7,784 bases of DNA from Candidatus Undinarchaeales archaeon SRR5007147.bin71 (GCA_014189675.1 DVAE01000012.1:1-7784), one strand, 5' to 3'; counted from the first letter of the stretch, positions 183 to 2,861 are shown. Notes: a model not told the origin generated them from the sequence alone. Made by a program: numbers and translations.

Positions 183-206
183 GCACCTTTTTTTCTAAAA
201 AAGTGC
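183..206 (+). other. Hairpin with T-run/A-run stem between the tRNA-Lys 3'-end copies
   Basis: GCAC, one bulged C and TTTTTT pair with AAAAAA and GTGC across a TCT loop, giving a ten-pair stem with one bulge. It sits directly before the bases TTCTGG and the second copy of the tRNA-Lys 3' end. The same order occurs after tRNA-Thr: A/T-stem hairpin, then YCTGG, then the tRNA 3'-end copy. Confidence 0.6.
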
Positions 207-212
207 TTCTGG

Positions 213-229
213 ATCCCGTCGGGCCCTCT
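213..229 (+). repeat. Direct repeat, copy 2: detached tRNA-Lys 3' end (att-like)
   Basis: An exact 17-base copy of 155-171. It lacks the 5' parts of a tRNA, so it cannot fold into one. A T7 run at 229-235 follows, so this copy also ends in a terminator-like tract. The flanking pair of identical tRNA 3' ends resembles attL/attR left by an integrative element, but only 41 bases lie between the copies and no integrase is present. Confidence 0.85.
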
Positions 230-235
230 TTTTTT
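229..235 (+). terminator. T-run after the detached tRNA-Lys 3' end
   Basis: Seven T residues end the repeat unit on the plus strand. They lie just beyond the stop codon of the convergent minus-strand gene at 244-546. A tract here would keep tRNA-Lys read-through from running into that gene. Confidence 0.4.
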
Positions 236-243
236 ATTGTATA

Positions 244-546
244 TTACGATAAGGAACGTGTTGTTTTGTAAAGAAGCGTACTCATTTCCCTGAACTGTGT
301 TGGTTCCATACTGTCAAGCCTGTTTAATATATCTTCAAGTGACATTTTCTCTTCTTCATCAATATCAAAACGCATTGCCCTCACAGAGCTTTCCTTTTCA
401 ATTAGCCGTCGAAGTTTTTTAGTATTTCTGTCGTATTTTTTCCAGCTAGGAGCTCCACCCCCACTTTTGACTTTACTCGTAATCGCTCCATACATATTAA
501 TGAGAATATTTCTGACTTTTTCCCTAGGGTCTTTTGTCCAGAACAT
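244..546 (-). CDS. Small hypothetical charged protein, 100 residues
   Basis: I do not recognise this protein. It starts MFWTKDPREK. A helical stretch (about 8-27) is followed by a glycine-rich turn SGGGAPSW (28-35), a very basic segment with KKYDRNTKKLRRLIEKE (36-52), and an acidic region with DIDEEEKMSLEDILNRLD (61-78). It has no signal peptide, membrane segment or cysteine cluster, so it is probably a soluble, helical cytoplasmic protein. Support for it being real: a TATA-like box (571-584 on this strand) centred about 28 bases before the ATG, and natural codon use. It stands alone, convergent with tRNA-Lys and divergent from the membrane protein at 630. The basic segment could bind nucleic acid, but that is a guess. 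Confidence 0.7.
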   Translation of the reverse strand: MFWTKDPREKVRNILINMYGAITSKVKSGGGAPSWKKYDRNTKKLRRLIEKESSVRAMRFDIDEEEKMSLEDILNRLDSMEPTQFREMSTLLYKTTRSLS

Positions 547-570
547 CTTAACAATAACAATATAAGTTCA

Positions 571-584
571 TTTTATTTAAATTT
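571..584 (-). promoter_or_regulatory. TATA box of the minus-strand hypothetical gene
   Basis: Read on the minus strand, this is AAATTTAAATAAAA, about 25-38 bases before the ATG at 546. The spacing places transcription start at or next to the start codon, so the mRNA would be leaderless. Confidence 0.5.
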
Positions 585-598
585 AAGCTGTCCGATTT

Positions 599-607
599 CT
601 TTATAAG
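599..607 (+). promoter_or_regulatory. TATA box of the membrane protein gene
   Basis: CTTTATAAG is centred about 26 bases before the ATG at 630, and no ribosome binding site lies between. This is the pattern of a leaderless archaeal gene and supports the chosen start. Confidence 0.55.
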
Positions 608-629
608 AGAGATAGTCATCTTATCAAGA

Positions 630-1085
630 ATGTTTACCCAAGCCGTAACATTGTTTGGGCTCATAATACTGGGAGCCTTCATAAGCATAGGCGCTAGAAG
701 GGCCGACCTCCAAGGAATCGAACTATGGCTTCCTTTCGGACTACTTGTTTCCTACGCATATTCTCCTCTATGGGGTTTCCTCATCGCCTTTCTGATGCTT
801 CTGATATCCTGGATTATATTCCCCTATGGATTGCAATACCTAGCTCTGACATCAGTATTTCTTATTCCAGCTTTCGCAATAACAAAATTCTTTCCTGTGA
901 CCGAAGCCAGCTTCTTCACAGTAGCAATGGGAATAGTTATAGCATACAATATAATCTCAAACGCGGCATACATAGTAGTCGGAGCGAATATAGTACGCGT
1001 AATAAAGTTCGCGGCATTTTCGATTGCATTTAACTGGACAGTAATGTATTACTTTGGATGGACATTCATTCAATGGCTAGTCTGA
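630..1085 (+). CDS. Five-helix integral membrane protein of unknown function
   Basis: The protein has 151 residues and is almost entirely hydrophobic. Likely membrane helices lie at about 4-20, 33-64 (long, possibly two short segments around SPLWG), 69-88, 94-118 and 124-148. The only strongly charged stretch is GARRADLQ at 21-28, a probable cytoplasmic loop under the positive-inside rule. There is no signal peptide, no catalytic motif and no soluble domain. Five or six short helices and small size are shared by MreD-like and energy-coupling-factor S proteins, but I see no diagnostic motif for either. The ATG is supported by a TATA box 26 bases upstream. The gene ends about 50 bases before the cation transporter region, which has its own promoter, so the two need not share a transcript. 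Confidence 0.8.
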   Translation: MFTQAVTLFGLIILGAFISIGARRADLQGIELWLPFGLLVSYAYSPLWGFLIAFLMLLISWIIFPYGLQYLALTSVFLIPAFAITKFFPVTEASFFTVAMGIVIAYNIISNAAYIVVGANIVRVIKFAAFSIAFNWTVMYYFGWTFIQWLV

Positions 1086-1090
1086 GGAAC

Positions 1091-1101
1091 ATTAATATAA
1101 G
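1091..1101 (+). promoter_or_regulatory. TATA box ahead of the cation transporter
   Basis: ATTAATATAAG predicts a transcript start near 1120-1123. That leaves a leader of about 14 bases before the ATG at 1136, enough to carry the ribosome binding site at 1126-1134. The arrangement fits the ATG at 1136 better than the GTG at 1155 or the ATG at 1194, which lie in the transporter frame. Confidence 0.5.
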
Positions 1102-1125
1102 CACATCTTCAAGAAAATTGTGACA

Positions 1126-1134
1126 GGTGAGGAG
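1126..1134 (+). promoter_or_regulatory. Ribosome binding site that points to the ATG at 1136
   Basis: GGTGAGGAG contains the Shine-Dalgarno core GGTGAGG and GGAG, and sits just upstream of the ATG at 1136. It is the best such site in the region and it decides the start. However, the frame it opens is not the transporter frame, because a TGA at 1137-1139 closes that frame on its 5' side. Confidence 0.55.
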
Positions 1135-1135
1135 A

Positions 1136-1240
1136 ATGACAGAAAACGCAAAAGGTGATCCAGGTGACCATAGTGGAGAACCCTACAGTGAATATGAAGT
1201 TCCTGCTCAGCTTCATAGAAGAGAATGCGAAAGAGCTTAA
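1136..1240 (+). CDS. 34-codon frame: displaced transporter N-terminus or overlapping leader peptide
   Basis: From the well-placed ATG at 1136 a frame runs 34 codons to TAA at 1238. It begins MTENAKGDPGDHSGEPYSEY and ends in a basic stretch (QLHRRECERA). Its first 21 codons look natural for this genome (GAA, AAA, GGT, GAT, CCA). The transporter frame over the same bases is unusually rich in GTG. The simplest reading is that residues up to about EYE are the true hydrophilic N-terminus of the transporter. A one-base shift near 1193-1200 would then join the frame to KFLLSFIEEN. The alternative is a genuine leader peptide overlapping the transporter start. No homology evidence is available. Confidence 0.4.
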   Translation: MTENAKGDPGDHSGEPYSEYEVPAQLHRRECERA

Positions 1241-2405
1241 AGAGAGCTCCGCTGCACTTTTTTTGTCAATATTTGCTTCCGCAGTCGCAGGAGCCTTTCT
1301 AAGCAACTCGAAAGAGATGCTACTTATTATACCGGGACTCATAATTTTGATTCCTGGCGCAAGCAATATGCGAGGTGCTATTTTCGGGGCAGTAGGAGCA
1401 AGGCTCGGCTCGGCATTTCATCTCGGACAGATAAAGTCCTTCGGCCTTCAGAATGATATAGTAAAAACAAATATTCTTTCTTCTGCCTATCTGAGCGTTA
1501 TTTTTCCAGTGATGCTTGCGTCCCTTGCATCTCTGTTTTCCAGACTTCTGGGATATGAGGGGGCGACAATTTCTACATTTATAACAATAGCATTTATAGG
1601 AAGTATAGTTGCAGGCTCAATACTTCTTGTCGTAACTTTCTTTATCGCCTTTACTGCGTATAGAAGAGGATGGGACCCGGACAATGTTACCGCTCCTCTA
1701 ATTGCTTCAATCGGCGATATAATAACTCTGCCCTCTCTTATTGCCGCTGCCTGGCTGACCCTTCGATTTTCGAGATTCTCCGGCTACTTTTCTCTTGCAG
1801 TTATTGGCCTTCTGATGGCATTGGTAGTATCTATATTACTTAATGAAGAGTCTAAAACGCGTACAATAGTAATTCAGAGTGCGGTAGTTCTTTCGCTAAC
1901 AACTCTTCTGAACACATTGTCTGGACTGCTTCTGCAGGAGAAACTTGTAGCCTTGATTGCGATACCGAGTATATTGGTTCTCTTGCCTGCTTTTCTTTCC
2001 CAAGGAGGAAATATTGGAAGTATATTCGCGTCACGATTTTCGACTAAGCTACACCTTGGTATTATTCAAGAGAAAGGCAGAGGAAGGATTGAAACCATTA
2101 AGGAAATGCTTGGAGCGTACACCTTTGCACTTTTGATATTCCCTGTAGTCGGAGCAATTTCAATTGGGATTTCAGGATTTATGGGAATACCAAATATTCT
2201 TGGAACCAGGCTTATTCTAGTAAGCCTCTTTGGAGGATTGATTGTTACAACAGTTGTAGTGCTTACCTCATTCTACATATCAATATTTTTTATGCGCCGC
2301 TCAATTGACCCAGACAACGTTATAGTTCCAATAATAACTAGCATTGCAGACATACTAGGTGTTGTTTCCCTAGTAATAGTTCTGACACTTTTCGGAGCAG
2401 TATAA
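1155..2405 (+). CDS. SLC41/MgtE-type divalent cation transporter, two membrane domains
   Basis: An integral membrane transporter, expected to move Mg2+ or a related divalent cation. Counted from GTG 1155 it has 416 residues, made of two repeated MgtE-like membrane domains. The first carries PGLIILIPGASNMRG from residue 60 and DPDNVTAPLIASIGD at 174-188. The second carries PSILVLLPAFLSQGGNIG from residue 271 and DPDNVIVPIITSIAD at 385-399. The acidic residues of these matching DPDN...D motifs are the likely ion-path residues by family knowledge. The bacterial MgtE cytosolic N domain and CBS domains are absent, as in SLC41 proteins and their archaeal relatives. The start is uncertain: neither GTG 1155 nor ATG 1194 has a good ribosome binding site. 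The N-terminus may instead begin at ATG 1136 in another frame. Which ion is carried cannot be read from sequence. Confidence 0.87.
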   Translation: MIQVTIVENPTVNMKFLLSFIEENAKELKESSAALFLSIFASAVAGAFLSNSKEMLLIIPGLIILIPGASNMRGAIFGAVGARLGSAFHLGQIKSFGLQNDIVKTNILSSAYLSVIFPVMLASLASLFSRLLGYEGATISTFITIAFIGSIVAGSILLVVTFFIAFTAYRRGWDPDNVTAPLIASIGDIITLPSLIAAAWLTLRFSRFSGYFSLAVIGLLMALVVSILLNEESKTRTIVIQSAVVLSLTTLLNTLSGLLLQEKLVALIAIPSILVLLPAFLSQGGNIGSIFASRFSTKLHLGIIQEKGRGRIETIKEMLGAYTFALLIFPVVGAISIGISGFMGIPNILGTRLILVSLFGGLIVTTVVVLTSFYISIFFMRRSIDPDNVIVPIITSIADILGVVSLVIVLTLFGAV

Positions 2406-2408
2406 ACA

Positions 2409-2424
2409 CAAGAAATAAAAAGAG
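2409..2424 (+). promoter_or_regulatory. Shared tRNA promoter element, copy 1 (tRNA-Met)
   Basis: The 16 bases CAAGAAATAAAAAGAG recur exactly at 2634-2649. The copies end 33 bases before tRNA-Met and 23 bases before tRNA-Thr. The AT-rich core is a plausible box A and the flanking bases a plausible BRE. The identical sequence suggests one promoter type, or a duplication that carried promoter plus tRNA. Confidence 0.5.
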
Positions 2425-2456
2425 CTGAATTCAAACATAGAGAGCCAGACACAAGT

Positions 2457-2595
2457 GCCGGTGTAGCTCAGTCTGGTTAGAGCGCTAGACTCATAAGCAT
2501 CTTATGAGTGATGATCCCTTCGTGAGCAAGAAGAGAAGTGACTTATGTGGCGCTAAGACATCTAGAAGTCGCGTGTTCAAATCACGCCACCGGCA
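2457..2595 (+). tRNA. Elongator tRNA-Met(CAT) with a 64-base intron
   Basis: The exons form a complete cloverleaf. The acceptor GCCGGTG pairs with CACCGGC (2588-2594), the D arm is GCTC/GAGC, and the anticodon stem is CTAGA (2485-2489)/TCTAG (2561-2565). The loop CTCATAA gives anticodon CAT (2492-2494). The T arm is GCGTG-TTCAAAT-CACGC, the discriminator is A2595, and CCA is absent. The anticodon stem lacks the three G:C pairs of initiator tRNA, and the acceptor does not resemble that of tRNA-Ile2. Elongator Met is therefore the best call, though CAT alone cannot exclude Ile2. The intron at 2496-2559 follows position 37, the canonical archaeal site. A short T5 run follows at 2597-2601. Confidence 0.93.
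2496..2559 (+). other. tRNA-Met intron with a bulge-helix-bulge splice motif
   Basis: A splice motif can be drawn. The 5' bulge is TAA (2494-2496) and the 3' bulge is ACA (2558-2560). The four-base central helix pairs CTCA (2490-2493) with TAAG (2554-2557), with one C/A mismatch. An inner helix begins GC (2497-2498) with GC (2552-2553) and continues imperfectly. Cutting between bases two and three of each bulge yields the correct anticodon loop. The intron also holds a perfect 8-base complement to the anticodon loop (CTTATGAG, 2501-2508) and the sequence GTGATGA (2508-2514), which matches a C-box consensus. No clear D box (CTGA) is present. Confidence 0.75.
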
Positions 2596-2633
2596 CTTTT
2601 TACTTAGTTCAGTGCACCAACTAGCTCTAATAG

Positions 2634-2649
2634 CAAGAAATAAAAAGAG
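2634..2649 (+). promoter_or_regulatory. Shared tRNA promoter element, copy 2 (tRNA-Thr)
   Basis: An exact copy of the 16 bases at 2409-2424, here ending 23 bases before tRNA-Thr. The distance suits an archaeal box A for a transcript starting at or near the tRNA 5' end. This suggests that tRNA-Thr is transcribed independently of tRNA-Met. Confidence 0.5.
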
Positions 2650-2671
2650 ATTACTTCATCAATACTTCCAT

Positions 2672-2745
2672 GCCTCAGTAGCTCAATCTGGTAGAGCGTC
2701 TGTTTTGTAAACAGAAGGTTGGGAGTTCAAATCTCTCCTGGGGCT
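2672..2745 (+). tRNA. tRNA-Thr(TGT)
   Basis: An intronless cloverleaf. The acceptor GCCTCAG pairs with CTGGGGC (2738-2744) with one T:G pair. The D arm is GCTC/GAGC. The anticodon stem TCTGT/ACAGA carries loop TTTGTAA, giving anticodon TGT for threonine ACA and related codons. The T arm is GGGAG-TTCAAAT-CTCTC with one G:T pair. The discriminator T2745 is usual for archaeal tRNA-Thr, and CCA is absent. The 3' end from T-loop position 59 onward is repeated exactly at 2844-2861. Confidence 0.96.
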
Positions 2746-2748
2746 TAT
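2731..2748 (+). repeat. Direct repeat, copy 1: 3' end of tRNA-Thr
   Basis: Eighteen bases, ATCTCTCCTGGGGCTTAT, run from T-loop position 59 through the discriminator and three trailer bases. They recur exactly at 2844-2861, a period of 113 bases. The 5' boundary is the same tRNA position as in the tRNA-Lys repeat. Confidence 0.9.
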
Positions 2749-2752
2749 ATTA

Positions 2753-2789
2753 TTTCTGCGAAGCAGGAAATTGCGCTTGTCGCATTTTT
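2753..2789 (+). terminator. Hairpins followed by a T5 run after tRNA-Thr
   Basis: Two foldings compete. One pairs TGCGAAGC (2757-2764) with GCTT and CGCA (2775-2784, two-base bulge). The other forms two small hairpins: TTTCTGC with GCAGGAA (2753-2769) and TGCG with CGCA (2772-2784). Either ends directly before TTTTT at 2785-2789, as an intrinsic terminator would. It is the first plausible end for a tRNA-Thr transcript. Confidence 0.4.
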
Positions 2790-2792
2790 CAT

Positions 2793-2835
2793 CAATGTTT
2801 TTGCCGAGGAGCAAAGCGACGAGGGAAAAACATTG
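2793..2835 (+). other. Long hairpin before the detached tRNA-Thr 3' end
   Basis: CAATGTTTTT (2793-2802) pairs perfectly with AAAAACATTG (2826-2835), and two more pairs (CC/GG) follow after a G/G mismatch. The loop is purine-rich, containing GAGGAGCAAAGCGACGA. The stem's T-run/A-run composition and its position just before GTTCCTGG and the tRNA 3'-end copy mirror the hairpin at 183-206 near tRNA-Lys. The element resembles a REP-like palindrome. It has no reading frame of note. Confidence 0.6.
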
Positions 2836-2843
2836 GTTCCTGG

Positions 2844-2861
2844 ATCTCTCCTGGGGCTTAT
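2844..2861 (+). repeat. Direct repeat, copy 2: detached tRNA-Thr 3' end (att-like)
   Basis: An exact 18-base copy of 2731-2748, without the rest of a tRNA. As at tRNA-Lys, the preceding bases are CTGG and the copy is followed by a T-rich tract. The 95 bases between copies carry hairpins but no gene. Confidence 0.85.

Follow-up and report, generated by a model that had tools for sequence, protein, structure and literature searches.

Short inserts lie behind many tRNA genes of a Candidatus Undinarchaeota genome, and each is followed by a detached copy of the 3' end of the very tRNA gene that precedes it. We think that these inserts are probably miniature mobile elements, non-coding and non-autonomous, that enter the DNA behind tRNA genes by a duplication-making insertion and nearly always in the same orientation. 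The elements appear to be a real and recently active family, and the enzyme that moves them may reside outside the assembled genome or arrive from elsewhere.

Two inserts in the window

The window, by which we mean the whole 7,784-nt stretch of DNA that was analysed, is contig 34 of Candidatus Undinarchaeales archaeon SRR5007147.bin71, a Ca. Undinarchaeota MAG with 39 contigs, 623,718 bases and a completeness of 83%. It contains two cases, with all features on the plus strand. The first is at an intact tRNA-Lys(CTT) gene at 96–169 (ARAGORN and Rfam RF00005, 69 bits). The left copy of its putative target-site duplication, ATCCCGTCGGGCCCTCT at 155–171, covers tRNA nt 59–73 plus 2 nt, and the same 17 nt occur a second time, exactly, at 213–229 as the detached tRNA-Lys 3' end. 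Between the copies is a B-type insert (172–212) with a T-run/A-run hairpin and the end TTCTGG, recognized from its fold and its B-type matches. It is 5'-truncated when compared with the Glu element of the relative ARS1358, which has no insert at Lys.

The second case is at an intact tRNA-Thr(TGT) gene at 2672–2745 (ARAGORN and Rfam, 70 bits). Here the left copy is ATCTCTCCTGGGGCTTAT at 2731–2748 (tRNA nt 59–73 plus 3 nt), and the detached tRNA-Thr 3' end at 2844–2861 repeats all 18 nt exactly. The insert between them (2749–2843) is A-type, ends in TTCCTGG, is missing from the relative UBA55 and shares 92% identity with the contig 32 insert behind tRNA-Val. It has three predicted hairpins. Hairpin 1 (TTTCTGC GAA GCAGGAA, 2753–2769) comes from the fold, hairpin 2 (TGCG CTTGT CGCA, 2772–2784) has compensatory double changes across copies in 4/4 pairs, and hairpin 3 (CAATGTTTTT ... 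AAAAACATTG, 2793–2835) comes from the fold and the alignment. The preliminary description of this DNA had reported both detached copies, with T-run/A-run hairpins between gene and copy and with TTCTGG (Lys) or TTCCTGG (Thr) ahead of the copy, and we confirmed its positions, order and motifs at both loci.

Tail copies across the genome

At least 12 of the 38 tRNA genes in this genome have a copy of their own tail within about 120 nt 3' of the gene. The copies in direct orientation are found at Thr, Val(TAC), Ile, Lys(CTT), Phe, Pro(TGG), Pro(GGG), Glu(CTC), Glu(TTC), Arg(GCG), Ser(TGA) and Trp. We inspected the DNA surrounding 37 Rfam tRNA hits. The Trp gene, which brings the set to 38, contains an intron and was missed by the tRNA scan; we located it via its B-type insert and judged the isotype by eye.

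For the counts we used a strict rule, which asks for the last 15 nt of the tRNA to recur in the 260 nt downstream with no more than 2 mismatches. By this rule 9 of the 36 testable tRNAs were positive. Permuting the tails among the tRNAs gave a mean of 0.98 positives, with 5 as the highest count in 2000 permutations, and shuffled downstream DNA gave an expected 0.01. In an earlier test with mismatched tail/tRNA pairs, 115 of 11,390 were positive. There were no tail copies upstream of tRNAs in this genome (0/108), and neither the 5' end nor the middle of a tRNA was copied downstream (0/108). The control set of about 80 archaeal loci, mostly distant, had 0 tail copies at 29 tRNAs, and a search up to 3 kb downstream for a larger autonomous version found no tail copies.

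The pattern is genome-wide and not a coincidence at two sites. The preliminary description had said that its proposal would shrink to coincidence if other tRNAs and relatives lacked the pattern, and we see it in both. Its idea of a family of miniature tRNA-anchored elements gains support from the many tRNAs with own-tail copies, and the variable part is indeed the tRNA-specific 3' end. It had also taken the bases YCTGG as the constant part, and this did not hold up: they stand ahead of only 3 of the 12 copies (Lys, Thr and Glu-TTC), and inserts ending in GG are commoner in this genome (7/12). The constant feature is the T-loop breakpoint.

Empty sites and duplication edges

Judged by IleRS, the closest named relatives are archaeon UBA55 (95%) and Euryarchaeota archaeon ARS1358 (86%). 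In UBA55 the Thr, Val and Arg sites are empty, and in ARS1358 the Lys, Ile and Phe sites are empty. UBA55 does have the Lys insert, with a drifted tail copy, ACCCAGCCGGGCCCT, that differs by several changes, and the Ser tail copies have drifted in both relatives. The Pro(TGG) insert is common to our genome and UBA55 and is missing from ARS1358. Because some sites are shared and others are lineage-specific, we conclude that insertions both preceded and followed the divergence of two lineages with about 95% identity.

At Val, UBA55 reads gggcccaCCTTATTTCTTTG, and our genome reads gggcccaCCT, then a 95 bp insert, then CTCTGGCCGGGCCCACCTTATTTCTTTG, which makes a clean 18-bp duplication. At Arg the duplication is 20–22 bp. 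The flanking DNA resumes beyond the detached copy. Empty sites together with continuing flanks argue for insertion and against a simple tandem duplication of local DNA, and from these alignments each case reads as an insertion of about 40–100 bp bounded by a target-site duplication.

The empty sites also bear on the suggestion, made in the preliminary description, that the copies act as decoys for tRNA-processing enzymes. If the copies were selected as RNA-processing decoys or as terminators, and were not mobile DNA, then we would understand why they sit directly behind tRNAs with T-tracts and hairpins. But their presence varies between genomes with flanks that are about 95% identical, the tail copies drift (at Lys in UBA55, at Ser in both relatives), and a copy that has no T arm should not be recognised by tRNA enzymes. 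The suggestion found no support and we regard it as highly improbable.

The left edge of the duplication falls 13 to 18 nt before the tRNA end, with a mode of 15, which places it at T-loop nt 58/59. The scatter of a few bases is what would arise if matches extend by chance or edge bases mutate later. In most cases the right edge is 0–8 nt downstream of the gene; one lies at 15 nt, and longer ones occur at Trp (about 25 nt) and at the Lys gene of the related genome G005 (more than 30 nt). Overall the duplications range from 15 to about 60 nt. We read this as one end that is fixed by the tRNA and another end that is loose. The longer duplications (Trp, G005 Lys) resemble local tandem duplication in part.

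A breakpoint inside the T-loop brings to mind the permuted tRNAs of archaea, which join at 59/60 within the T-loop (PMC3218864, PMC3978253). That likeness would favor a T-loop intron, where tail and element are spliced out at nt 58/59 and the detached tail is the real 3' exon. But the upstream tRNA is already complete. We rejected this candidate when the 4-bp central helix of a bulge-helix-bulge was present at 0/6 loci, with at most 3 of the 4 helix pairs, and we give it next to no chance.

Insert families

The inserts form related hairpin families that are non-coding, about 40–100 bp long and predominantly in one orientation; our statements on insert ends are based on about a dozen sequences. 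Three hairpins characterise the A type. The B type has a single T-run/A-run hairpin, and its full-length members have CTCCCGAGCGAAGCGAGG ahead of that hairpin. Other types are found behind Ser(TGA) and Pro(GGG), where the units are tandemly repeated. The changes on both sides of all four pairs in A-type hairpin 2 score 0.92, against 0.46 when shuffled, in a small sample of seven distinct sequences, and its CTTGT loop hardly varies. Each of the nine A-type matches in our genome adjoins a tRNA, for which the chance is about 2e-20 if the matches are independent.

In a small sample of inserts, at Pro(TGG), Glu(CTC), Glu(TTC) and UBA55 Pro(GGG), the 5' part is missing and the 3' side is kept. There are also a few reverse-orientation copies behind tRNA genes, and these have no tail copy. 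A DNA search across the phylum with the A-type hairpin gave matches limited to our genome and UBA55. Exact-pattern scans, which are narrow and perhaps excluded our own and near records, gave 0 matches in genome contigs (A-type) and 0 in viral contigs (A and B types), so these scans found no virus or distant host carrying A or B elements.

We consider template switching during replication or repair to be a serious rival, even if on balance an unlikely one. Here a break or stall at the T-arm would cause the nascent strand to switch to a distant hairpin element and then return to the T-loop, which would leave an insert and a duplication with no dedicated enzyme. The variable right edge, extra junction nucleotides, tandem units and long duplications are all in its favor, and the tails have AATC directly after the breakpoint, which is possible microhomology. 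However, a single breakpoint and largely one orientation would have to recur at 12 tRNAs of one genome, and the covariation and the tRNA-specific occurrence of the families are as for a propagating entity.

Related genomes in the phylum

Tail copies were counted in our own genome and in G001, G002, G004 and G005, with G003 left out. We infer that G001 is GCA_002495465.1, G002 is GCA_002687935.1, G004 is SRR2090159.bin1129 (Naiadarchaeum limnaeum) and G005 is GCA_002502135.1. All of the genomes are incomplete metagenome drafts, and the genomes sampled at class and phylum level are those of the order.

The same layout occurs with different hairpins in other families of the phylum, in G004 (tRNA-Phe) and in G005 (Lys, two Gln, Leu and Ser), and two of the G005 inserts have a common core, GGGCTTCG...CGTCCGCGGCAAGGCGGACGTTCGG. 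The strict rule gave 3/29 positives in G001, 2/40 in G002, 2/29 in G004 and 4/35 in G005, counts that are, per genome, equal to or slightly above the permutation maximum. One of the two strict hits in G004 is a complete T-arm that belongs to a second tRNA-like piece; the Phe case alone was counted. Outside our own genome, the case is made by empty sites and by the layout that the inserts have in common. A target and breakpoint that are conserved while the cargo differs suggest a lasting mechanism rather than one lucky repeat, and by comparison of these sequences the data point to a lasting insertion mechanism in the phylum.

How the elements may insert

In conservative site-specific recombination the att sequence travels unchanged with the element, and a new tRNA would receive a foreign tail. 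Since the same insert family is found with a locus-matching tail at each tRNA, we favor a staggered cut that is filled in over conservative recombination. In the mechanism that we propose, a first nick would fall on one strand in the conserved T-loop and a second nick on the opposite strand at a loosely chosen spot shortly beyond the gene, and the element would be copied in between the nicks, so that the tRNA stays intact. The sub-step that we tentatively favor is target-primed copying, by analogy with SINEs and LINEs, because the first nick is fixed, the second is loose and the inserts are 5'-truncated, though we hold it with less than even confidence.

We searched for three enzyme families. 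Tyrosine recombinase (PF00589) had no match in our genome, which is 83% complete, and 14 of 14 control genomes were positive. Cas1/casposase (PF01867) also had no match in our 83% complete genome, reverse transcriptase (PF00078) had none in six incomplete genomes of the phylum, and we saw no autonomous partner element.

The preliminary description had proposed a recombinase that recognises the T-arm boundary at several tRNAs. Something does act at that boundary at many tRNAs, but a tyrosine recombinase does not fit the missing PF00589 and the locus-specific tails. The inserts could in principle be scars of such a recombinase, remnants of integrative elements with an att from the T-loop to the tRNA 3' end, in keeping with archaeal integrases, which target the tRNA T stem-loop and 3' end with an element that carries the matching tail (PMC8371274, PMC9897764). 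Besides the missing protein, one insert is found at many tRNAs with a tail that matches the locus each time, and the inserts are gene-free and 40–100 bp. We strongly disfavor scars as an explanation and consider them very unlikely.

A DNA integrase or transposase that we did not recognise, for example a distant Cas1-like one, could make a wide-stagger cut in the T-arm and insert DNA directly. There is a precedent in the A. boonei casposase, which uses T-loop sequence as a motif (TCAAATC, beside its tRNA-Pro target) and makes 14–15 bp duplications at the tRNA 3' end (PMC6614799, PMC6977970). The motif TCAAATC is itself T-loop sequence. However, our genome has no Cas1 match, the inserts have no terminal inverted repeats, and the duplication begins within the T-loop and not 9–15 bp beyond it, with a length that is not fixed. 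We think direct DNA insertion of this kind is rather improbable.

For target-primed copying, a possible cause of the fixed breakpoint is tRNA modification. Many archaeal tRNAs have m1A58 or m1I57 in the T-loop (PMC7912444), and we speculate that these could halt a copying enzyme at exactly 58/59. Taken furthest, the elements could be what SINEs are in other organisms, here in archaea: hairpin RNAs that a target-primed system specific for the tRNA T-loop spreads behind tRNA genes throughout a DPANN phylum. The breakpoint would possibly be set by the T-loop, either through a T-loop-specific nickase or through a methylated A57/A58 that stops the copying enzyme. We regard this proposal as unlikely. 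Several observations weaken our best explanation: six genomes had no reverse transcriptase match and we saw no autonomous partner, the duplications of 15 to about 60 nt are wider than most transposases produce, the reverse-orientation copies without a tail are unaccounted for by the simple model, the Trp and G005 Lys duplications are partly tandem-like, and the drafts are incomplete.

Comparison with known systems

SINEs and non-LTR retrotransposons are similar in having a short non-coding insert, a fixed first breakpoint, a variable duplication and frequent 5' truncation with the 3' side kept. Our inserts have target-site duplications of variable length and, in a small sample, 5' truncation with a conserved 3' side. 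Unlike SINEs, they are archaeal and have a T-loop target, they lack a tRNA- or 5S-derived head and a poly-A or microsatellite tail, and a reverse transcriptase acting in trans (PF00078) was not found in six incomplete genomes of the phylum.

Among the duplication-making enzymes known to use the T-loop, casposases come closest. Like our inserts, casposons and their miniature derivatives have the tRNA 3' end as target, the T-loop motif and the target-site duplication. They need inverted repeats and place their 14–15 bp duplications after the T-loop motif (PMC6614799, PMC6977970). In our case no Cas1 was found, we saw no matching inverted ends in the inserts by eye, and the duplication starts inside the T-loop with no fixed length, unlike the 14–15 bp duplication at 9–15 bp after the motif (PMC6614799).

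In archaeal tyrosine-recombinase integrative elements the tRNA also stays intact and a detached 3' fragment is found at the far end. Our inserts differ in being 40–100 bp and gene-free, with many tRNAs per insert family and each tRNA's own tail, and we found neither an integrase gene nor a fixed att carried by the element. Miniature elements of the REP/IS200-IS605 type are likewise hairpin-based non-coding repeats, but they are not tied to tRNA genes. To our knowledge, they make no target-site duplication.

A literature search covering part of the literature found no earlier report of such elements.

Significance

In archaeal genomes of about 0.6–1 Mb, insertions have occurred repeatedly and recently at the same fixed point in many tRNA genes and have left the genes unbroken. 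The breakpoint at 58/59 is adjacent to the 59/60 junction of permuted tRNAs, so the inserts may exemplify how tRNA genes gain duplicated 3' parts, and they may bear on how split and permuted tRNAs originated. Should the enzyme be found, it would provide a compact system for DNA insertion at a universal tRNA motif.

The window carries an intron-containing, Met-like tRNA gene at 2457-2595 that scores 59.7 bits with Rfam and whose CAT anticodon region we read by eye; ARAGORN at default settings made no call for this gene.

Three contigs of the close relative UBA55 (C15, C19 and C1) have runs of N and one contig end within or adjoining the hairpin-rich inserts that lie 3' of tRNA genes, so short-read assemblies probably under-report these inserts. 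Behind tRNA-Glu(CTC) on C26 of SRR5007147.bin71, the insert is separated from the flank common to UBA55 and the second relative, ARS1358, by some 750 bp of additional DNA, and we judged by eye that an ORF in this DNA is glutamine amidotransferase-like. Several tRNAs of G005, a genome from another family of the phylum, have CCA encoded 3' of the discriminator, in contrast to tRNAs of the genus to which the window belongs.

The remaining observations are from SRR5007147.bin71. Elements of the three-hairpin A-type family stand in reverse orientation 3' of two tRNA-Leu genes and tRNA-Val(CAC) (C30:5861, C9:13902 and C24:2443), and on reading these three sequences we found no detached repeat of the host tRNA's 3' end. 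At tRNA-Val(CAC), a degenerate fragment resembling the T arm of a different tRNA comes after the reverse element. Two different long-arm tRNAs have the same trailer of about 44 nt (TATAGGTCTTTAGTTCATTGCCCAACC...; C30 after 5944, C12 before 6799), which suggests that trailers may have been exchanged between tRNA loci in this genome.
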